Shown one piece after another: positions 1,153 to 21,899 of a DNA stretch of 26,347 bases (the stretch's first letter is position 1; the number at the start of each line of letters is the position of its first letter). The notes beneath the pieces are model-generated. The model was not told the DNA's origin, made no database searches, and saw nothing but the letters and a program-made list of their open reading frames with translations. The position numbers and the translations under genes were made by a program. The DNA comes from a virus: IMG/VR virus record IMGVR_UViG_3300010885_023234, positions 1 through 26,347 of that record, one strand, 5' to 3'.

Positions 1153-1179
1153 GTTTTGTACTCCCTTTACTTTATTATG

Positions 1180-1197
1180 ATAGCAACAACTAGTTAA
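1180..1197 (-). promoter_or_regulatory. conserved TTAA-N10-TAT element (copy 1), promoter-like
   Basis: Reading leftward this is TTAAC, ten bases, TATCAT, preceded at the -10-like box by TG (TGCTATCAT). It is the only conserved block in the gap before the 29-aa gene, and it lies 28 nt from that start codon. The same spacing occurs in six other leftward gaps. Confidence 0.5.
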
Positions 1198-1210
1198 AAT
1201 CTAGTTACGA

Positions 1211-1438
1211 TCATGGTTTCTTTTGACTATTACAAAAGTCAAAAATCTCTTTTACTTTTTCTTCCGCTTTATATCCTAAAGTTTTATTCATTTCCTTCAC
1301 GCATTCGATTATAGGGTTTTTTGGTTCCGTTGGTTTATTTTCCATGGCTCCGTAAAAAAGGCACAAGAGCACAATGCTGTTAATCAACGTGGACACAACC
1401 AAGATCCACGAAAGCACGCATCCGGTTGCTTCACTCAT
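1211..1438 (-). CDS. single-pass membrane protein (75 aa)
   Basis: The N-terminus MSEATGCVLSWILVVSTLIN continues into a long hydrophobic helix (about residues 7-31), followed by a charged 40-residue tail that is lysine-rich and contains two cysteines. This is the shape of a bitopic inner-membrane protein. A longer frame from a TTG at 1465 exists, but GAGGG lies 10 nt before the ATG at 1438, so the short start is chosen. It overlaps the 52-aa gene by 8 nt. Function unknown; it belongs to the membrane-protein-rich end of the leftward operon. Confidence 0.68.
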   Translation of the reverse strand: MSEATGCVLSWILVVSTLINSIVLLCLFYGAMENKPTEPKNPIIECVKEMNKTLGYKAEEKVKEIFDFCNSQKKP

Positions 1439-1589
1439 TATCTTTACCCTCATTGATTGCTGCAAACATGGCCATAATCTGCGCTTGTATCTCCTGAGGC
1501 GTAGCTTTTAGCTCCTGCGCCTCAATGGTCTTAACGGCCTTCCATTTAGCTTTAATCCGCGTCTCTAGGTCATTTGGTTGATTGCTCAT
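1431..1589 (-). CDS. hypothetical 52-aa protein
   Basis: A small soluble, helical protein starting MSNQPNDLETRIKAKWKAVK and ending INEGKDNE. GAGAGGG lies just upstream of the ATG, and the end of the gene supplies the ribosome-binding site for the overlapping membrane-protein gene. It fills an otherwise unexplained 160-nt gap in a fully packed operon, which supports it as a true gene. No family recognised. Confidence 0.6.
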   Translation of the reverse strand: MSNQPNDLETRIKAKWKAVKTIEAQELKATPQEIQAQIMAMFAAINEGKDNE

Positions 1590-1601
1590 TGTCTTACCCT
1601 C

Positions 1602-2108
1602 TCAATAATAGGTTGTGTCATTTTCGTAGTACTCGCCCGTTTCAGGCAATCCGCCTATTTGGTTGTCGATCGTGTCGATCAACCCGGCGATCGTGTCAAG
1701 CACATTACACAAGAATGACATTTCGGAATCAGGGTCATTCATCTGCATCACCTTGGCCAATTCTGGCAATGTCTCCACATACTCATTGTAATAGTCGTTT
1801 GCCTTTAGGTTTACCGATGCTAGTGCATCCTGTATCGCTGTAAGCTTGGTTGCGTCCACGTTAGTGCCCTCCGATTGTGTCAATGATTGTTCAGGTTGAT
1901 TGTGCGGTTGAGTGATTGCCAGCGGTGCATTGTGCGGTGTATCCGCTGGCAAAGGTGGATTAAACACGAAATAGCCGCTATCGTGGTGCAAAGCTATACG
2001 ATCCTGCCCGATTGTATCTAGCAGGCTCTGGTGATGCCTTATCGGCGTGCTACGGGGTAACAGTCTCTCAACTGTATGCCCGTGGTATTCGGATAATGAT
2101 TTTATCAT
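1602..2108 (-). CDS. hypothetical acidic protein (168 aa)
   Basis: The N-terminal third is basic and histidine-rich. A polar linker rich in Pro, Gln, Thr and Asn follows at about residues 52-83, then an acidic helical C-terminal half containing SFLCNVLDTIAGLIDTI and ending in a tyrosine-rich tail. GGAGAA lies 7 nt before the ATG, and the start overlaps the previous stop (ATGA). The two-part layout with a flexible linker suggests an adaptor, perhaps binding a host protein, but I do not recognise it and assign no function. Confidence 0.7.
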   Translation of the reverse strand: MIKSLSEYHGHTVERLLPRSTPIRHHQSLLDTIGQDRIALHHDSGYFVFNPPLPADTPHNAPLAITQPHNQPEQSLTQSEGTNVDATKLTAIQDALASVNLKANDYYNEYVETLPELAKVMQMNDPDSEMSFLCNVLDTIAGLIDTIDNQIGGLPETGEYYENDTTYY

Positions 2109-2383
2109 TGCGCATTCTCCAATGATTTTCTAATTCGTTTTTGCATCCTGTTTGTGAAACGTGATACTAACCAAGAGCACCGTTCAGAATCGTAATTTTC
2201 TATAAAATGCAAATATAATTTTTTAGCGGCATTGTATTTATCATCCACTAAATAAAATATTTCAAAATAATAAAAATCTTTTTTTTCTCTGTTATTTTCT
2301 TCAACAGCTTTATTAAAATTAATATAACCTTTTTCTAATTTTGTAATTGCATCTTTTAAGTTTTGTATTAGTTCTTGCGACAT
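2105..2383 (-). CDS. hypothetical charged helical protein (92 aa)
   Basis: A lysine- and glutamate-rich, probably all-helical protein (MSQELIQNLKDAITKLEKGY...), with aromatic residues clustered in the middle (DFYYFEIFYLVDDKY) and a basic C-terminus. Its DNA is much more AT-rich than the genes around it, which hints at separate acquisition. A start at 2395 is possible, but GGGGG lies 6 nt before the ATG at 2383 and the promoter-like element (2415-2432) fits either start. No family recognised. Confidence 0.68.
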   Translation of the reverse strand: MSQELIQNLKDAITKLEKGYINFNKAVEENNREKKDFYYFEIFYLVDDKYNAAKKLYLHFIENYDSERCSWLVSRFTNRMQKRIRKSLENAQ

Positions 2384-2414
2384 TGTAGCCCCCATGTTTG
2401 TGTATATTTTTACG

Positions 2415-2432
2415 ATAGCAGCGAAAAGTTAA
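2415..2432 (-). promoter_or_regulatory. conserved TTAA-N10-TAT element (copy 2), promoter-like
   Basis: Leftward sequence TTAAC, ten bases, TATCGT, with TGC directly before TAT. It lies 32 nt upstream of the 92-aa gene start, in the only gap between that gene and the 59-aa gene. Confidence 0.5.
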
Positions 2433-2439
2433 AGAACGA

Positions 2440-2619
2440 TTAACGGGCTTTGCGAACGGTGAATCCCTTGCGCTTGAGCGTCAGCAGCACGCTCTCTAAG
2501 GTATCCGATTCTTGCATCAGGCTGATAACCTCCCAAAGCGCACGCTCGCCGTTAGCATTGAGCGCTTTGAATGTAAGGCGTCCGTTTTGTGTGCTGTAAG
2601 TTAGATCAAACTGGCGCAT
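2440..2619 (-). CDS. hypothetical 59-aa protein
   Basis: The protein runs from MRQFDLTYSTQNGRLTFKAL to a basic end, LKRKGFTVRKAR. It looks like a small alpha/beta protein with a beta hairpin at the start, a helix in the middle (ERALWEVISLMQESDTLESV) and a final basic strand; nucleic-acid binding is conceivable. AGGTGA lies 6 nt before this ATG, and the ATG follows the previous stop by one base (TAAcATG). An ATG at 2640 would add seven residues but lacks a site. Confidence 0.68.
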   Translation of the reverse strand: MRQFDLTYSTQNGRLTFKALNANGERALWEVISLMQESDTLESVLLTLKRKGFTVRKAR

Positions 2620-2620
2620 G

Positions 2621-2935
2621 TTATTCACCTGCCCATTCATAACCGAATTCTCTAATCATTTTCTTTAAAGCGGTATCAATATGGTTGTTGTTGATACCCG
2701 TATCAGGTGCGCCATTGAGGCCGCCATAAATACGATCTAACCATGGATTAACCTTGTCGGCAGGGATTACCCATAAGCATGCATCCCAACGCGTGCGCAT
2801 AGGCGAAAAACCTTTTTCTTGGCATTCTGCTATGAATTGCGCAAAAGACTTGCGCCCAAAATATGTATGCTGTTCTTGCCATGCCTCAACGCAAAGATTT
2901 TTTAATTCTTGATAATCCGCATTGCTGATTTTCAT
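2621..2935 (-). CDS. hypothetical 104-aa protein
   Basis: A soluble protein beginning MKISNADYQELKNLCVEAWQ, with aromatic-rich segments (HTYFGRKSFAQFIAECQEKG, RWDACLWVIPADKVNPWLDR). AGGGG lies 7 nt before the ATG, inside the repeated boundary cassette that also carries a hairpin and a promoter-like element. No known domain recognised. It is the first of a pair with the 59-aa gene downstream. Confidence 0.7.
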   Translation of the reverse strand: MKISNADYQELKNLCVEAWQEQHTYFGRKSFAQFIAECQEKGFSPMRTRWDACLWVIPADKVNPWLDRIYGGLNGAPDTGINNNHIDTALKKMIREFGYEWAGE

Positions 2936-2955
2936 TTTGTGCCCCTGATTGTTTT

Positions 2956-2975
2956 GGGCAGCTTGATTGCTGCCC
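2956..2975 (-). other. leader hairpin A
   Basis: A 7-bp perfect stem (GGGCAGC/GCTGCCC) with loop AATCAA, read leftward. It lies between promoter-like element copy 3 and the RBS of the 104-aa gene. No U-tract follows, so it is not a standard terminator; a 5' mRNA-stabilising or processing hairpin fits better. Confidence 0.6.
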
Positions 2976-2985
2976 TATTTGTAGG

Positions 2986-3003
2986 ATAGTGGGTAAAGGT
3001 TAA
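2986..3003 (-). promoter_or_regulatory. conserved TTAA-N10-TAT element (copy 3), promoter-like
   Basis: Leftward TTAAC, ten bases, TATCCT, continuing ACAAATAGGG. The TAA of the preceding gene's stop codon is part of the TTAAC box. It lies 51 nt from the start of the 104-aa gene, with hairpin A in between. Confidence 0.55.
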
Positions 3004-3215
3004 TTTTCCGTATACGCTGCAAAATACGCGGCTACGATTTTTTCCTGAATACCTATTTCGCCCTCAAACTCGCAACGTAATGCATTTTCGCATTCCGATG
3101 CAAACTCAAGAGCATCGCCGCCGGTAATGTCTGCACGTTTATCATCAAAAAAAATCGAAACGCTGTATTCGTTGTGAAAATCAACGGTATATTCACCGAA
3201 TTTTGTTTTAGCCAT
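3000..3215 (-). CDS. hypothetical 71-aa protein with C-terminal AAYTEN
   Basis: A small acidic protein that seems to open with beta strands (MAKTKFGEYTVDFHNEYSVS) and end with a helix. Its last six residues, AAYTEN, are identical to the end of the unrelated clamp-like protein just upstream, because the DNA of the gene boundary is duplicated. AGGGGG lies 6 nt before the ATG. No family recognised. Confidence 0.7.
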   Translation of the reverse strand: MAKTKFGEYTVDFHNEYSVSIFFDDKRADITGGDALEFASECENALRCEFEGEIGIQEKIVAAYFAAYTEN

Positions 3216-3236
3216 TTTGTGCCCCCTGATTGTTTA

Positions 3237-3256
3237 GGGCAGCTTGATTACTGCCC
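3237..3256 (-). other. leader hairpin B
   Basis: A 6-bp stem GGGCAG/CTGCCC with an 8-nt loop containing AATCAA, read leftward, at the same place relative to promoter-like element and RBS as hairpin A. Confidence 0.6.
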
Positions 3257-3266
3257 TATTTGTAGA

Positions 3267-3284
3267 ATACGCGGTAAAAGTTAA
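3267..3284 (-). promoter_or_regulatory. conserved TTAA-N10-TAT element (copy 4), promoter-like
   Basis: Leftward TTAAC, ten bases, TATTCT, continuing ACAAATAGGG as in copy 3. The stop codon of the clamp-like gene lies inside the TTAAC box. It lies 52 nt from the start of the 71-aa gene. Confidence 0.55.
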
Positions 3285-4021
3285 TTTTCCGTATACGCTG
3301 CGCCAGTATTTAGATTGACGCAAACGCGGCTGTCTTTTTCGCTTATTTCGCCGACCCAAGGCTTACGCAACGGCGATAACAAAAGCGTGTGACTCACGTT
3401 GTTTTTGACTGGCGAACGGTAAACGGCATTGTTGTTAAATCCCGTGCTGCGAAAAGATAGGGTTTCGCTATCATCGCCTAAAAGATCAAGAATCCGCACG
3501 ATCCGCTTGCGTTCTGTGGAATACGCATACGTTAATTCGTTGTCCTCCGGGAATATGTCCGATTTCATGATTAAGCGCCAATAATCGGGATAAGTGCAAT
3601 CATACGCCTTATAATTCGCTTCATGAATGACGACGTGCTGGCGTTTTGCGGCATGCCACGCTTTTGTTTGCTCGGTAATTGGAATGCACGCATTAGCGCC
3701 GAAAAGCTCTAATTCTTGCGTTTCGTCATTAAAGCATATCGAGTAGCCGCCTTTTGCCTTCATGGCCTTTAAAGCGGCCTTTATGAAGCCATCAGGGGCA
3801 ACGAACGTAACGCCATCAGGATTGTGCAAGGTTGTGTTTGTAAAACAAATATGTGCGAGTAAATGGCCATCGGTAGCAGTTACCAAAACTTGATTGTCTG
3901 CGCAGCTATCCGAAATCTGAAAACATACACCTTTCAGATAAAATCGCGACTCGCTTTTACTCATTGCCAGCGATACGGCGGTTAATTGCTTTTTGTTAAT
4001 TTCAACGTAGTGAAGTGTCAT
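3281..4021 (-). CDS. compact DnaN-like sliding clamp (DNA polymerase processivity factor)
   Basis: The 246-residue protein shows several landmarks of the bacterial beta clamp in the right order. SRFYLKGV at 25-32 matches the TRPxLxGV region. ATDGHLLA at 49-56 matches the ATDGHRLA signature. YPDYWRLI at 144-151 matches the FPDYxRVIP segment. LLLSPLR at 213-219 resembles the final VMPMR strand. At about two thirds of the usual 366 residues, it may be a shortened or fused three-domain clamp. In the family, the ring tethers polymerase to DNA, so a replication role is inferred. The longer frame to 4066 is rejected because the AGGGGG site, hairpin and promoter-like element all point to the ATG at 4021. 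It ends in AAYTEN. The assignment rests on motifs only. Confidence 0.62.
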   Translation of the reverse strand: MTLHYVEINKKQLTAVSLAMSKSESRFYLKGVCFQISDSCADNQVLVTATDGHLLAHICFTNTTLHNPDGVTFVAPDGFIKAALKAMKAKGGYSICFNDETQELELFGANACIPITEQTKAWHAAKRQHVVIHEANYKAYDCTYPDYWRLIMKSDIFPEDNELTYAYSTERKRIVRILDLLGDDSETLSFRSTGFNNNAVYRSPVKNNVSHTLLLSPLRKPWVGEISEKDSRVCVNLNTGAAYTEN

Positions 4022-4042
4022 TTTGTGCCCCCTGATTGTTGC

Positions 4043-4064
4043 GGGAAGGCTTGATCGCCTCCCC
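4043..4064 (-). other. leader hairpin C
   Basis: An 8-bp stem with one mismatch (GGGGAGGC/GCCTTCCC, read leftward) and loop GATCAA. It sits in the same position as hairpins A and B but has different stem bases, so the pairing is kept while the sequence is not. Confidence 0.55.
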
Positions 4065-4075
4065 ATGATTTTAGA

Positions 4076-4093
4076 ATACGCGGTAAAGGTTAA
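4076..4093 (-). promoter_or_regulatory. conserved TTAA-N10-TAT element (copy 5), promoter-like
   Basis: Leftward TTAAC, ten bases, TATTCT, 55 nt before the clamp-like gene. It lies 9 nt past the ArdC-like gene's stop. The boundary is homologous to copies 3 and 4, but here the codon matching tyrosine of AAYTEN reads TAA. Confidence 0.55.
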
Positions 4094-4101
4094 TTTAGTG
4101 T

Positions 4102-4446
4102 TTACGCTGCGTCGGCGTTATCGACGGTTAGATCAATCTTGAAGTAAAATTGCTCTGGTAATCCGTCAATCTGTGACACGTTAAAAACACGATAGCTTTT
4201 ATGGTGTTTGTCGGTGTAAACGTTGCCTTGTTTATCGGTTTTTTCGGCAATGCCGTAGTATCCGATTAAGTGGCCTTTTTCGCCTTTACGCACTTGGCCG
4301 CCTAATTCTTGCGCTTGTTTGTATGTCATGAATACGGGCGTCGTTTCATGCATCCGCCCGCGAAACATGCCGATTAGAGCGAATACCAAATTTTCTTGAT
4401 TCTTGCCTTGGTAGGCTTTGAAGTCTTTGTTAACGGCGATTGTCAT
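4102..4446 (-). CDS. stand-alone ArdC N-terminal (antirestriction-type ssDNA-binding) domain protein
   Basis: The 114-residue sequence fits the ArdC N-terminal domain (ArdcN, DUF1738). It has YQGKNQENL at 12-20, TYKQAQELGGQVRKGEKG at 41-58 and RVFNVSQIDGLP at 86-97; these are the conserved core of the family. In plasmid ArdC proteins this domain binds single-stranded DNA and protects incoming DNA from type I restriction, and it is followed by a zinc-peptidase-like domain. Here only the N-terminal domain exists. A role in shielding injected or replicating phage DNA is inferred. GGGAG lies 8 nt before the ATG, and its own promoter-like element is 36 nt upstream. The gene lies next to the clamp-like gene. 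Confidence 0.75.
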   Translation of the reverse strand: MTIAVNKDFKAYQGKNQENLVFALIGMFRGRMHETTPVFMTYKQAQELGGQVRKGEKGHLIGYYGIAEKTDKQGNVYTDKHHKSYRVFNVSQIDGLPEQFYFKIDLTVDNADAA

Positions 4447-4473
4447 TTTTCATTTCTCCCTTTGTTGATGTTA

Positions 4474-4494
4474 GGCTGATTATAGCAATCAGCC
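4474..4494 (-). other. leader hairpin D overlapping the promoter-like element
   Basis: An 8-bp perfect stem (GGCTGATT/AATCAGCC) with a 5-nt loop, read leftward. Unlike hairpins A-C, it overlaps the TAT box of copy 6, so it may act on DNA (operator) rather than in the transcript. Confidence 0.5.
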
Positions 4495-4499
4495 TTTAA
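4482..4499 (-). promoter_or_regulatory. conserved TTAA-N10-TAT element (copy 6), promoter-like
   Basis: Leftward TTAAA, ten bases, TATAAT, with TGC directly before TAT: a perfect sigma-70 extended -10 (TGCTATAAT). It lies 36 nt from the ArdC-like gene start. No TTGACA-like box lies at the normal distance. Confidence 0.58.
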
Positions 4500-4506
4500 T
4501 TTTCCG

Positions 4507-4677
4507 TTACCGCTTATTGAGTTTGATTGTGATAATGTTTTTTCCTAATTTCGATTTGCCTTCGACGTATTTCCATGCGTGCGCTTCTTCGACCGTCATT
4601 CCGAAGTGCGCTTTAAACCAGTCTTTTTTTTGCGCGACTGGTTTTTTCACGAAAAGGTTTTTGATAAAGTTGATCAT
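4507..4677 (-). CDS. hypothetical basic 56-aa protein
   Basis: A small lysine-rich protein starting MINFIKNLFVKKPVAQKKDW and ending ITIKLNKR. A possible helix contains WFKAHFGMTVEEAHAWKYVE. Its size and charge would suit a nucleic-acid or host-protein binder. The open frame extends to 4842, but GGGAG lies 8 nt before the ATG at 4677 and the conserved promoter-like element lies inside the longer frame, so the short form is chosen. No family recognised. Confidence 0.65.
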   Translation of the reverse strand: MINFIKNLFVKKPVAQKKDWFKAHFGMTVEEAHAWKYVEGKSKLGKNIITIKLNKR

Positions 4678-4716
4678 GTCGTTAGCTCCCTTTGTGTGTG
4701 TCTCTATGATTGTAGA

Positions 4717-4734
4717 ATAGCAGCCAATTCCTAA
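4717..4734 (-). promoter_or_regulatory. conserved TTAA-N10-TAT element (copy 7, diverged), promoter-like
   Basis: Leftward TTAGG, ten bases, TATTCT, with TGC before TAT and ACAATCATAG after it. The first box is degenerate, but the spacing and downstream bases match the other copies. It lies 40 nt before the 56-aa gene. Confidence 0.5.
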
Positions 4735-4753
4735 CGAAGGGTAAACGGGTAAT

Positions 4754-5422
4754 TCAAATTTTCTCGAATTGATCGTAGCCCAGCAAAAATCCTTCCGTGA
4801 TAATCCACCGATTAACGGCGTTTTTAGCCTCGAACGCATCACGAAACATGCCGATAGCTCTACGTTCTCCCGTAGTGCTAGAATAGGCGAATGCAGGAAC
4901 TCTCAGGCCGTATTTGTAGCGACCACGAACGACTTGCTCTGCATCGTCTCGTGTAGGATAAACGCCTAATTGCGTTGCTCTAATGCCAATATGGCGAATG
5001 ACTTTGAATAAATGCTTGTCCGCCTTGATCGTCAATGTTTCGCCCGTTTTTTCGTATTCTTCGATAGCTGCATCACGCGCTTTTTGCGTTTCGTGATAAC
5101 CTAGGCTTGTTGATCGACCGTTCACCATTACGCGCGCTTGATACTGCCTGCGCCGACTTAAAGGCTTGTCGCTTAGGTTATCCAAATACTCCGCTTCCCA
5201 ACGACGTTTTTTATGGATTTTCTCAGGCATTGTGTCGAATGCGCATGCCCAGATTGCACGGCGTAAAGGTATCAATTCGCCCGATGCAAGGGCGACTTTT
5301 AATTGCGTTCCCCTTTTAATCGTTCGTGCCATTGTGCCGTCAAGATTCGCTAGGAATCCATCGGGCGACAATTTGTAAACTTCTCGCACCTTAGCAATGT
5401 CGACGGGTTTAGCCTCAAACAT
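4754..5422 (-). CDS. AP2-like DNA-binding protein, HNH-endonuclease relative without a visible HNH core
   Basis: The 222-residue protein has three parts. Residues about 10-66 (VREVYKLSPDGFL, then LRRAIWACAFDTMPE) resemble the N-terminal region of phage HNH/AP2 endonucleases. Residues about 92-127 fit an AP2 DNA-binding domain (YQARVMVNGRSTSLGYHETQ, with the RDAAIEEYE helix). A second, weaker AP2-like unit lies at about 172-207 (RRAIGMFRDAFEAKNAVNRW). No H-N-H catalytic triad is visible between them, so cleavage is doubtful and a regulatory or structural DNA-binding role is more likely. It is the first gene of the leftward block, behind a sigma-70-like promoter. AAAGG lies 7 nt before the ATG. 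Confidence 0.65.
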   Translation of the reverse strand: MFEAKPVDIAKVREVYKLSPDGFLANLDGTMARTIKRGTQLKVALASGELIPLRRAIWACAFDTMPEKIHKKRRWEAEYLDNLSDKPLSRRRQYQARVMVNGRSTSLGYHETQKARDAAIEEYEKTGETLTIKADKHLFKVIRHIGIRATQLGVYPTRDDAEQVVRGRYKYGLRVPAFAYSSTTGERRAIGMFRDAFEAKNAVNRWIITEGFLLGYDQFEKI

Positions 5423-5475
5423 CCGATTGCCTTTCGTTAAAGGTTTTTTTCGACGGGTTGATTCGCCGTAAGAGA

Positions 5476-5504
5476 ACCGTAAAGGCTGAACTAGGAATTG
5501 TCAA
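5476..5504 (-). promoter_or_regulatory. candidate sigma-70 promoter for the leftward block
   Basis: A perfect -35 TTGACA (5499-5504, read leftward), a 17-bp spacer and TACGGT as -10 (5476-5481) lie about 55 nt upstream of the first leftward gene. This gap has no TTAA-N10-TAT element, so host polymerase would start here. The -10 box is weak. Confidence 0.5.
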
Positions 5505-5507
5505 GCT
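5495..5507. repeat. 13-bp inverted repeat, left arm
   Basis: GAATTGTCAAGCT here is the exact reverse complement of AGCTTGACAATTC at 5834-5846. Both contain TTGACA, facing left here and right in the other arm. They bracket 326 bp of AT-rich DNA. Confidence 0.8.
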
Positions 5508-5746
5508 GAAAAAAAGGGATTCTTATAGATATTTTTTTTTCCTCTCTTTTTATGTATGTAAGAAAAATCTTATTAATGAGGTAAATAGCTTGAGAAAAGG
5601 TTTAAATTAAAATTTTGATTAATTAATGGATGGTTGAAAAAAGAAACAGAATTAAAATCGTAATGCACAATTTGCTTGTCGAAATCTAACACCGCGGAAA
5701 AACATTTTTTTATAGGGTTTTTCAAAAAACATAAAAAAGCCATAAT

Positions 5747-5768
5747 TTGCCTTAATTTTGCCTTAATT
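5747..5768. repeat. tandem 11-bp repeat (TTGCCTTAATT x2)
   Basis: Two exact adjacent copies of TTGCCTTAATT. The second copy overlaps the left arm of the 17-bp inverted repeat. They are iteron-like in form. Confidence 0.75.
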
Positions 5769-5781
5769 GCATACAATTTTA
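5765..5781. repeat. 17-bp inverted repeat, left arm
   Basis: AATTGCATACAATTTTA is the exact reverse complement of 6183-6199. Next to it, CTCCC extends to a GGGAGGTAAAAT block (read leftward) that recurs on the plus strand at 6088-6099. Confidence 0.8.
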
Positions 5782-5833
5782 CCTCCCAGCTATAAACACG
5801 CATTCGTCAACAATTCGTAAGAATATGCATCAA

Positions 5834-5846
5834 AGCTTGACAATTC
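5834..5846. repeat. 13-bp inverted repeat, right arm
   Basis: Exact reverse complement of 5495-5507. Its TTGACA faces rightward, but no good -10 box lies 16-18 bp downstream. Confidence 0.8.
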
Positions 5847-6026
5847 TAAATTTAGGTTTTTTTCACAGTGTCTCATGGAATTAACGAAAAGTCAAAATTA
5901 TCTTTATGGTTAACAAAACGTTAATGCGGGATAGCCAGTCGAAAAACACTCGAACGAATCACCCCGAACGTCCGATAATCATTATTATGTTAAATTGACA
6001 TTCCGAACGAATCAAAATCTATGCGC

Positions 6027-6071
6027 CGTCACCTAACATTGTAACACAAAATAGTTAAAATTTCGTTAACA
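6027..6071 (+). repeat. 45-bp direct repeat, copy 1
   Basis: 43 of 45 bases match copy 2 at 6128-6172; both differences are transitions. The core GTTAA-N7-TTAAC (6054-6070) is a small dyad, and the copy contains TTTCGTTAA, a 9-mer that also occurs at 5432-5440, at 6162-6170 and inverted at 5881-5889. Confidence 0.85.
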
Positions 6072-6127
6072 GACCACCGCTTATTTTGGGAGGTAAAATA
6101 ATTCCAGAATACCCGATGTCCACACGT

Positions 6128-6172
6128 CGTCACTTAACATCGTAACACAAAATAGTTAAAATTTCGTTAACA
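6128..6172 (+). repeat. 45-bp direct repeat, copy 2
   Basis: Starts 101 bp after copy 1 with two transitions. It contains the same GTTAA-N7-TTAAC dyad (6155-6171). Neither copy encodes protein. Confidence 0.85.
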
Positions 6173-6182
6173 CAATATTAGA

Positions 6183-6199
6183 TAAAATTGTATGCAATT
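6183..6199. repeat. 17-bp inverted repeat, right arm
   Basis: TAAAATTGTATGCAATT, exact reverse complement of 5765-5781, 401 bp away. The two arms bracket the 45-bp direct repeats. Confidence 0.8.
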
Positions 6200-6325
6200 C
6201 TAGGTTGTAATGATTGATATAATTTTATTAAAATTTTAATTGATAAAGTTTGATTAAAATTTTAAAATTTAAAACACCCCGGGTAGGGCCGGTCAGGCCC
6301 GCTGCGGCTACGGTAGTCATCATAG

Positions 6326-6349
6326 AAAATTTTTTTTAAAATTTTTTTT
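6326..6349. repeat. tandem 12-bp A/T tract
   Basis: AAAATTTTTTTT occurs twice in a row. Phased A-tracts of this kind bend DNA; they lie between the GC-rich island and the tandem operator-like units. Confidence 0.7.
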
Positions 6350-6371
6350 CAACCATACCCTTTTCAACCAA

Positions 6372-6402
6372 TTCAGTTGTACGATAAAATCGTACAACTG
6401 AA
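6372..6402. promoter_or_regulatory. operator-like dyad 1
   Basis: A perfect 14-bp inverted repeat (TTCAGTTGTACGAT/ATCGTACAACTGAA) around AAA. No T-run follows on either strand, so a protein-binding operator is more likely than a terminator. Confidence 0.6.
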
Positions 6403-6424
6403 AACCATGCCCTTTTCAACCAAT

Positions 6425-6453
6425 TCAACCGTACGAAAAAATCGTACAGTTGA
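6425..6453. promoter_or_regulatory. operator-like dyad 2
   Basis: A 12-bp inverted repeat with one mismatch (TCAACCGTACGA/TCGTACAGTTGA) around AAAAA. It shares the GTACGA half-site with dyad 1, and its right arm overlaps the candidate -35 box of the terS promoter. Confidence 0.58.
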
Positions 6454-6477
6454 TTCTCCCCGTCGAAATGTTACATT
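6450..6477 (+). promoter_or_regulatory. candidate rightward late promoter
   Basis: TTGATT (6450-6455), 16 bp, TACATT (6472-6477). Four of six bases match the consensus in each box. Transcription would start within a few bases of the terS ATG, giving a nearly leaderless message, consistent with the absence of a Shine-Dalgarno site there. Confidence 0.35.
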
Positions 6478-6483
6478 GTAATC

Positions 6484-20176: not shown

Positions 20177-20583
20177 TGGTTGCAATCGAGAAGATCGAGC
20201 ATTTAGAAGATGAAATAGCTGTTCTTCCTCCGCTTGATCTTGCCGTCTCACATCATTTTGCGGATGGTGTGTATGCTCGCTGTATGTATATTCCCGCTGG
20301 GGTAATGAGCACTGGTAAAATACACAAGACCGAGCACCTTATTGCGTGCATCAAGGGTAGTGGAGTCCTAGTTACTCAGAATGGACGTTTTGATTTTGAA
20401 GCTGGTACGGTGATAACTGTACCACCAAATACGAAAAAAGCATTTTTTGCCAAAGAAGATTCAATTTTAATGAATGTTCACCATAATCCTGATAACATGC
20501 ACGAAGTGGATGACCTCGTTCAAACTTTGGTTTACCCAGCTGACTATCGAAGCAACCAATTAACGACGGAGACTGAACAATGA
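20176..20583 (+). CDS. cupin-fold protein (135 aa)
   Basis: The protein reads as a single small cupin barrel. HKTEHLIACIKGSGVLVTQN at 50-69 is a motif-1-like stretch with His50 and His54 as possible metal ligands. GTVITVPPNTKKAFF at 77-91 is a motif-2-like turn, and His102/His103 could complete a site. The HxH spacing of classic metal cupins is altered, so enzyme activity is uncertain. Cupins often bind sugars or metals. In a virion operon next to fibres and ejection proteins it might be a structural or glycan-related part. Start and stop overlap both neighbours. Confidence 0.62.
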   Translation: MVAIEKIEHLEDEIAVLPPLDLAVSHHFADGVYARCMYIPAGVMSTGKIHKTEHLIACIKGSGVLVTQNGRFDFEAGTVITVPPNTKKAFFAKEDSILMNVHHNPDNMHEVDDLVQTLVYPADYRSNQLTTETEQ

Positions 20584-21899
20584 GTTTTGCAGTAACCGCC
20601 GCAGTCGCAGTTGGAGCAATCGCTGTTGGGTCAGTTGCTCAATCCGTCATTGGTGCCCAAGCAGCTCGTAACGCCTCTAAAGCACAGCAAAAAGGTGCTC
20701 AGCAGGCAATCTACAACGAAGAAGATGCTTTTAAGGATTACCAGACTCGTGCAGATGCCGCTCGTGACCAAAGTACGAACCTGTTCAACCAGTCGCGTGA
20801 CCAAGGGTTAAACCTTCAACAGAACGCTCTTAACACATCGCAATCCGCTCTTCTCGATGCTCGCAACAACAGCGTCGCCGCTCAACAGAATGCATTAAAT
20901 GATACCCGAGGGGTACTAAGCAACGTTCGGGATCAGAACATCGCAGCTCAACAGCAAGCATTTAATAACATCCAAGGAAACTTAACCGATACCCGCAACC
21001 AAAACAATGCCACACAAGCAAACGTCTACAACACCAACGCCGCTATTCAACAGCCATTTTATCAGACGGGGGTCGATGCCAACGCCAAAATGGCCAGTTA
21101 TCTTGGGTTGGGTGGTAATTCAGCCGATCCTAACTATGGAAAATTCACGCAAGGGTTTACCAACAACGATTTCCAGCAAGATCCGGGTTATGGTTTTCGT
21201 TTTCAAGAAGGATTGAAAGCATTAGAGCGAAGCGCTGCTGCCAAGGGAAACCTACTCGGCGGTGCTCAGGTCAAAGCCAGTCAACGTTACGGACAAGATT
21301 TTGCATCAAACGAGTACCAGAATGCTTACAATCGGTTTAACCAAGATCGCCAGTTTACCGCTGGTCAGCTATCAGGTGCAATTAACAACGGTATGAATGC
21401 TGGTAATCAAATTGCTGGCTATGGTACAAATTACGCCAACGCTACCAACGCAAATAATCAAAATTATAGTACTGGGATGACCAATGCTAACAACAATTTA
21501 GCAAATAGTGTTGGAAGTGCTTATCAAAACTATGGTACTGGTATGACTAACGCTAATCAGAACTATGCAAGTAGCGCTATGAACGCCTATCAGAATTATG
21601 GCACTGGTTTGACTAACGCTAACACGAACTACGCAAACAACGCTACGAACCTTTATCGAGACACAGCCAACAATCAATCGAACATGTTGAACACTTATGC
21701 TCAGAACTATGGTGGTCAACGTTCCAACAGTGCTTCCAACATTTCAAACATCATCCTTGCTGGAGCAAAAGCAAAAGCTCAGGGTTATATTGGGCAAGGA
21801 AATGCATATAATGCTGGAATTGGTAATATCATGGGTGCTGCTGGTCAATTTCTTGGTAGTAGTCAAGGATCAGCTGGTGCTAACAAACTTTTAGGTTAA
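20580..21899 (+). CDS. ejection (internal virion) protein 1, P22 gp7-position, DNA-transfer-protein-like
   Basis: The 439-residue protein opens with a hydrophobic Ala/Val segment (about 3-30), then Gln/Ala/Asn-rich helical repeats. The conserved block DPGYGFRFQEGLKALERSAA, then KGNLLGGAQVKASQRYGQDF at about 204-243, is common in phage proteins annotated as DNA transfer proteins. The C-terminal third carries 22-residue repeats (YGTGMTNANxNYA). Such proteins leave the virion during infection and help form the channel through the cell envelope. First of three ejection genes, in P22 7-20-16 order. Confidence 0.75.
   Translation: MSFAVTAAVAVGAIAVGSVAQSVIGAQAARNASKAQQKGAQQAIYNEEDAFKDYQTRADAARDQSTNLFNQSRDQGLNLQQNALNTSQSALLDARNNSVAAQQNALNDTRGVLSNVRDQNIAAQQQAFNNIQGNLTDTRNQNNATQANVYNTNAAIQQPFYQTGVDANAKMASYLGLGGNSADPNYGKFTQGFTNNDFQQDPGYGFRFQEGLKALERSAAAKGNLLGGAQVKASQRYGQDFASNEYQNAYNRFNQDRQFTAGQLSGAINNGMNAGNQIAGYGTNYANATNANNQNYSTGMTNANNNLANSVGSAYQNYGTGMTNANQNYASSAMNAYQNYGTGLTNANTNYANNATNLYRDTANNQSNMLNTYAQNYGGQRSNSASNISNIILAGAKAKAQGYIGQGNAYNAGIGNIMGAAGQFLGSSQGSAGANKLLG
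21465..21662 (+). repeat. 66-bp coding repeats in ejection protein 1
   Basis: Three units starting at 21465, 21531 and 21597, exactly 66 bp (22 codons) apart, encode Y(G/S)TG(M/L)TNAN. A further partial unit lies upstream. Confidence 0.75.

Follow-up and report, generated by a model that had tools for sequence, protein, structure and literature searches.

A repeated intergenic promoter element with probable CtrA-type boxes in the leftward gene block of a P22-portal podovirus group

The window analysed here is the whole 26,347-nucleotide stretch of an IMG/VR virus record (IMGVR_UViG_3300010885_023234, positions 1 to 26,347). In it, a non-coding gap separates two divergent gene blocks, and the gaps within the leftward block carry a compact element whose full unit reads TWAAC-N6-TTAAC-N10-TAnnnT, that is, TTAA-N7-TTAA at the −35 position followed by a −10 box of the sigma-70 type. 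The window was compared with three related phages from IMG/VR, G001 (38.9 kb), G002 (40.9 kb), and G003 (33.3 kb), the first of which is essentially complete, since its ends overlap. The features of the locus are given below; coordinates of the gap copies cover −40 to −1 of each element, and TGn, where present, precedes the −10 box.

1171–1210, minus strand: element GTAAC-N6-TTAAC-N10-TATCAT with TGn, 5' of a gene for a 29-aa membrane protein
2406–2445, minus strand: element TTAAT-N6-TTAAC-N10-TATCGT with TGn; perfect TTAA-N7-TTAA
2977–3016, minus strand: element TATAC-N6-TTAAC-N10-TATCCT
3258–3297, minus strand: element TATAC-N6-TTAAC-N10-TATTCT
4067–4106, minus strand: element TAAAC-N6-TTAAC-N10-TATTCT
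4473–4512, minus strand: element GTAAC-N6-TTAAA-N10-TATAAT with TGn; weakest second box, best −10
4708–4747, minus strand: element TTTAC-N6-TTAGG-N10-TATTCT with TGn; orthologous copies in G001 and G003
4754–5422, minus strand: gene 1, 222 aa, with an HNH-like N-terminus and three AP2-like repeats; first leftward gene
5423–6483: non-coding gap of about 1 kb between the divergent gene blocks, rich in TWAAC
5476–5504, minus strand: canonical sigma-70 promoter TTGACA-17-TACGGT ahead of gene 1
6038–6069, minus strand: element P0b, TTAAC-N6-TTAAC-N10-TACAAT with TGn, perfect boxes, in the divergent gap
6139–6170, minus strand: element P0a, TTAAC-N6-TTAAC-N10-TACGAT with TGn, perfect boxes, kept in all four phages

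The window thus holds nine copies, seven in gaps of the leftward block and two at 6038–6170. All seven block gaps of at least 44 bp contain one copy each, and the remaining junctions, at which genes overlap or lie no more than 12 bp apart, contain none, just as a preliminary description of this DNA had stated for real gaps and coupled genes. That description placed the element on the minus strand at the same seven sites, with a second box fitting TATNNT in 7/7 and TGC before TAT in four, all of which we find as well. Its spacing was off by one: TTAA-N10-TATNNT has zero matches in the block, the true distance being TTAA-N11 (equivalent to TTAAC-N10). The first box, described as the same everywhere, is TTAAC in most copies, with TTAGG at 4717–4734 and TTAAA at 4482–4499. 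The two divergent-gap copies had been overlooked, as had an upstream half-site, TWAAC, located exactly 11 bp 5' of the first box. Because the copies at 2986, 3267, and 4076 belong to duplicated cassettes, the seven gap copies amount to about five independent cases. Even so reduced, TTAA-N11-TAnnnT is common to four of the five non-homologous gaps, a result equalled by 2 of 20,000 shuffles in a test adjusted for discovery.

An information profile built from 13 upstream contexts shows CGTWAAC from −40 to −34, TTAAC from −27 to −23, T at −19, C at −16, and TATnnT from −12 to −7. The pairing of TWAAC boxes at a spacing of exactly 11 bp scored 50/60, where 20,000 shuffles reached 39 at most, although the contexts are partly non-independent and the odds are thus overstated. 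The strict pattern TWAAY-N6-TTAAS-N10-TAnnnT has 14 matches in the four genomes, all pointing leftward and all within the leftward block or the divergent gap, whereas 55 other spacing combinations gave 0–3 matches each; 347,652 bases from 19 more distant relatives contained no match. A downstream TAMAAT that overlaps TATnnT was considered as the −10 and rejected, TATnnT being the better fit because T−12, A−11, and T−7 are invariant. TGn is found before the −10 in fewer than half of the 20 gap elements and in all five P0 elements of the divergent gaps of the four phages. As the preliminary description had also noted, no sigma-70 −35 lies at the right distance: the best TTGACA-like hexamers at 15–19 bp match 1–4 of 6 positions, which is the chance level.

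A position-matrix scan, which the same description had proposed and which we ran on the window and its relatives, found the element confined to the leftward block, with seven copies in the window and four, three, and six in the relatives, at scores of 17–45, the background reaching no more than 12.7. The loci of the 19 more distant relatives outside the clade yielded none. Because the matrix was trained on gap copies, it missed two copies of P0, which were recovered by the spaced-box pattern; with the divergent-gap copies included, the totals for the three relatives rise to 5, 4, and 7. In the relatives, the element occupies every gap of G001 (4/4) and G003 (6/6) and three of the four in G002, whose sole empty gap carries a canonical TTGACA-17-TAAGAT promoter. 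This interchange of the element with an ordinary promoter provides good evidence that it functions as a promoter too. Conservation points the same way. Positions 2406–2445 form with G002 31454–31493 a near-identical 40-bp block spanning −40 to about +1, on both sides of which the flanks have diverged, and between 1171–1210 and G002 32916–32955 the core is kept at 15/16 positions, compared with 20/41 other positions (Fisher p = 0.0013). Given the invariant −10 positions, the conservation from −40 to about +1 amid diverged flanks, and the exchange with a canonical promoter, the view that the elements are promoters, already put forward in the preliminary description, is well supported; the family is real and well conserved.

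The recurrence of so compact an element in every gap might bring to mind promoters read by a T7-like RNA polymerase encoded by the phage, as the preliminary description had suggested, or by a phage sigma factor. We give this almost no credence: PF00940, the single-subunit RNA polymerase family, has no match in the window or its three relatives, among them the essentially complete G001, and neither do PF04542 and PF08281, while the positive controls, including T7, were detected; moreover, the element is confined to one block.

The element reaches its most perfect form in P0, found in the divergent gap of all four phages and doubled in the window as TTAACGAAATTTTAAC-N10-TAC(G/A)AT with TGn. In G001, an imperfect inverted repeat of about 105 bp (38642–38746) adjoins P0 in the divergent gap and is a possible replication origin. 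The leftward replication operon of this phage is preceded by a canonical TTGACA promoter, as is gene 1 in the window.

The upstream part of the element resembles a known binding site. The published motif of CtrA, a master regulator of Alphaproteobacteria that governs the cell cycle, is TTAA-N7-TTAA (PMC9437464), to which each of the nine window copies conforms at 6–8 of 8 positions, three of them at 8/8; in S. meliloti, the CtrA box is TAA-N7-TTAAC (PMC3616915). Most CtrA-activated promoters have a single site at −35, and upstream halves are degenerate in fliL and fliQ (PMC11264516). Gel shift and reporter assays have shown that CtrA binds phage promoters, which it activates or represses, and CtrA sites cluster in the gaps between divergent blocks of alphaproteobacterial phages (Mascolo et al. 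2022, PMC9437464). We therefore searched bacterial chromosomes for the full architecture. In 96 alphaproteobacterial genomes it had 57 matches, distributed over 27 genomes (nine of the matches coming from the genome chosen as centre), against 10 when the −10 was moved by 3 bp. No enrichment appeared in 94 gammaproteobacterial genomes, whose 10 matches in 8 genomes fell below the reversed-pattern control. The taxonomic enrichment of the architecture is established by these counts, as the architecture itself, its conservation, and its specificity are by the comparisons above.

We infer from these data, with a probability of about 0.68, that the elements are promoters activated by CtrA of the host, which would accordingly be an alphaproteobacterium. 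The CtrA box, its upstream half often degenerate, would occupy the place of the −35, 10 bp 5' of a −10 of the sigma-70 type (TAnnnT, often extended by TGn) read by the host RNA polymerase. Phosphorylated host CtrA, a response regulator of the OmpR family, would bind the half-sites as a head-to-tail dimer and recruit the polymerase. CtrA would not be needed for gene 1 or for the leftward replication operon, since both are served by ordinary TTGACA promoters. The exchangeable small genes, on the other hand, would be re-promoted in a CtrA-dependent manner at each gap, together in some phages with the stretch toward a cell-wall hydrolase, so that takeover genes, and perhaps lysis genes, would fire once the host cell cycle permits. 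The preliminary description had offered a phage factor binding TTAAC near −25; a factor that replaces the −35 remains close to the best explanation, with host CtrA the favoured candidate in place of a phage protein. Nor do these observations favour the phage-specific early transcription system it had proposed, because the box corresponds to that of host CtrA and the architecture is enriched in alphaproteobacterial chromosomes.

Several observations weigh against CtrA. In the bacterial scan, a stricter pattern was mostly intergenic outside Alphaproteobacteria as well, and the architecture is thus not exclusive to CtrA; other regulators of the OmpR family also bind 11-bp direct repeats. The boxes are imperfect in several copies, with TATA, GTAA, or TTAG halves. 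A search for the host through the terminase found no relative in bacterial genomes, GANTC depletion fails to separate these phages from their relatives, and, among cultured relatives for which a host class is stated, the nearest is listed under Gammaproteobacteria. This last record, and the mostly gamma- or betaproteobacterial phages found among portal relatives with named hosts, would suit another OmpR-family regulator of the PmrA/QseB or PhoP type acting on 11-bp direct repeats in a gamma- or betaproteobacterial host, all the more as the hexamer-N5-hexamer geometry equals that of the PhoP box (PMC3335776). Yet a PhoP half-site would be reversed here, and reversal at this position abolished the activity of the phoP and rstA promoters (PMC3335776). 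Since, in addition, the half-site TTAAC within TTAA-N7-TTAA belongs to CtrA and the 94 gammaproteobacterial genomes show no enrichment, we consider such a regulator unlikely. CtrA, or some other repressor, might instead use the boxes as operators and silence the promoters until the cell cycle permits, in the way that CtrA represses DELTA_120 of phage vB_BsubS-Delta (PMC9437464). The placement of the box at the activating −35 position, and the want of a −35 at usable spacing, which makes the promoters look activator-dependent, render repression quite improbable.

The logic of an activator box standing in for the −35 is shared with the middle promoters of T4, driven by MotA and AsiA, in which the −10 is kept and about half of the promoters have TGn (PMC2988021). 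The T4 promoters have one MotA box, with its centre at −30 and 12 bp from the −10 (PMC2988021), unlike the direct repeat at 11 bp, located 10 bp from the −10, seen here. We recognised neither MotA nor AsiA in these phages. If the elements were middle-type promoters, the likeliest phage activator to bind the TWAAC repeats would be the product of gene 1, which seems to be a relative of homing endonucleases that lacks the HNH residues. Gene 1 is kept in all four phages, in each of which it comes first among the leftward genes, preceded by a TTGACA-17 promoter, and its family occurs only in the four element-bearing phages (4/21), a co-occurrence confounded by their kinship. Its AP2-like fold is suggested by a Pfam AP2 match (E = 0.16), by AlphaFold2 repeats with a pLDDT of 82, by a Z score of 4.9 over 43 residues against the TEM1 AP2 domain, and by BFVD matches to phage HNH proteins. 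At the place of the HRLAWLL box described for phage HNH-AP2 proteins (PMC2248197), gene 1 has LRRAIWAC. The fold match is weak, the scores of 12.8–14 bits lying below the Pfam AP2 gathering score of 33.3, and fold searches of the PDB with gene 1 gave no significant Foldseek match. Our initial working model took gene 1 for the activator, and was demoted once the elements were compared with the CtrA box; an activator private to the phage leaves unexplained both the known box and its enrichment in host chromosomes, and we regard it as doubtful. Having lost its HNH residues and retained AP2-like repeats, the gene 1 product could also, in an improbable variant, be an activator that reads or competes for the CtrA-type boxes, which would make a CtrA-like network run by the phage.

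Downstream of the promoters, leader hairpins form a further part of the repeated unit. Those of the window are:

2956–2975, minus strand: 5' leader hairpin GGGCAG..CTGCCC starting at about +1/+2, −15.2 kcal/mol
3236–3257, minus strand: 5' leader hairpin, −14.1 kcal/mol
4043–4064, minus strand: 5' leader hairpin with a different stem (GGGGAGGC..GCCTTCCC), −16.6 kcal/mol

A hairpin starting at about +1 to +3 accompanies 11/20 gap copies, and the structure is kept across at least four distinct stem sequences. Near-identical cassettes adjoin differing genes: downstream of the copy that follows a 66-aa gene, each of the four phages has a different gene, and the copy after an ArdC-like gene precedes different genes in the window and in G003. 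The combination of promoter, hairpin, and ribosome site is best explained as a repeated cassette at which relatives would swap genes, which suggests that the regulatory cassettes may double as recombination sites. The PeSLs (promoter early stem-loops) of T4-like phages, repeated between small genes, are reportedly similar, in that relatives swap genes at cassettes made up of a strong early promoter of the sigma-70 type and a terminator stem-loop. Here too, an intergenic cassette of promoter and stem-loop is repeated between small, swapped genes. In contrast to PeSLs, a CtrA-type box stands in for the −35; the hairpin starts at about +1 and shows no run of T when read in the sense direction, and roughly half of the copies have no hairpin. 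Two genes of the block deserve mention: positions 3281–4021, in a mobile gene block, encode a protein whose similarity to the DNA polymerase III beta clamp is limited to the central domain (PF02767), and positions 4102–4446 a 114-aa protein with only the N-terminal domain of ArdC (PF08401), likely an anti-restriction factor.

Control of phage genes by CtrA is already known, and what is new here is most likely the phage group and the cassette-like layout. The closest parallel comes from the LPEG phages (phiCbK-like, vB_BsubS-Delta, and Cp1R7A-A1; PMC9437464), which share TTAA-N7-TTAA sites in a divergent gap of about 1 kb and in intergenic promoter regions, with small genes of unknown function downstream. 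Their signature of concentrated, intergenic sites recurs in our strict matches, all of which, judged by position, fall in the block or the gap. In contrast to the LPEG phages, the present ones are a P22-portal podovirus group from metagenomes, and every gap of their gene-shuffling block has one box at the −35, with many upstream halves degenerate. If CtrA is indeed the activator, host cell-cycle control would extend to an uncultivated group of P22-like podoviruses, and promoters could be used to predict host class where phages have been seen in metagenomes only. The proposed 'lytic deferment' would also become a testable map, promoter by promoter, because ordinary promoters serve gene 1 and replication and CtrA-type ones the exchangeable block. 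In the window and G002, CtrA-type promoters would further serve the stretch leading to a cell-wall hydrolase (PF07486, found in G001, G002, and G003). The element at 1171–1210 heads this small-gene and cell-wall-hydrolase end of the leftward block, as does its G002 counterpart, which makes CtrA-gated lysis a prediction rather than a result.

Scans of other viral contigs were less telling. In a first pattern scan, set aside, the other matches were single copies, and the one that was checked was intragenic. In a second, stretches were similarly numerous at the control spacing N9 (85 versus 89), and the intergenic share alone differed (48/70 versus 19/46 distinct), in part because the pattern itself contains stop codons; the scan lends weak support to the promoter pattern. 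Two unrelated contigs, L155 (2664 and 5658) and L210 (minus strand, 241–272 and 1291–1322), each have two copies of TTAAC-N6-TTAAC-N10-TATNCT just 5' of start codons, which may be further phage promoters of the CtrA type. Of a different kind is the palindromic AACCCAGTGGGT-type operator of phage DSL-LC05 (L095; 3553–3712 and 4079–4292), several copies of which surround the canonical TTGACA-16-TAGAAT promoter, which points leftward; the same leftward block includes a gene annotated 'repressor protein C'. Lastly, positions 20580–21899 of the window encode a 439-aa protein of the virion block with internal tandem repeats (21457–21673), also present in the relatives.

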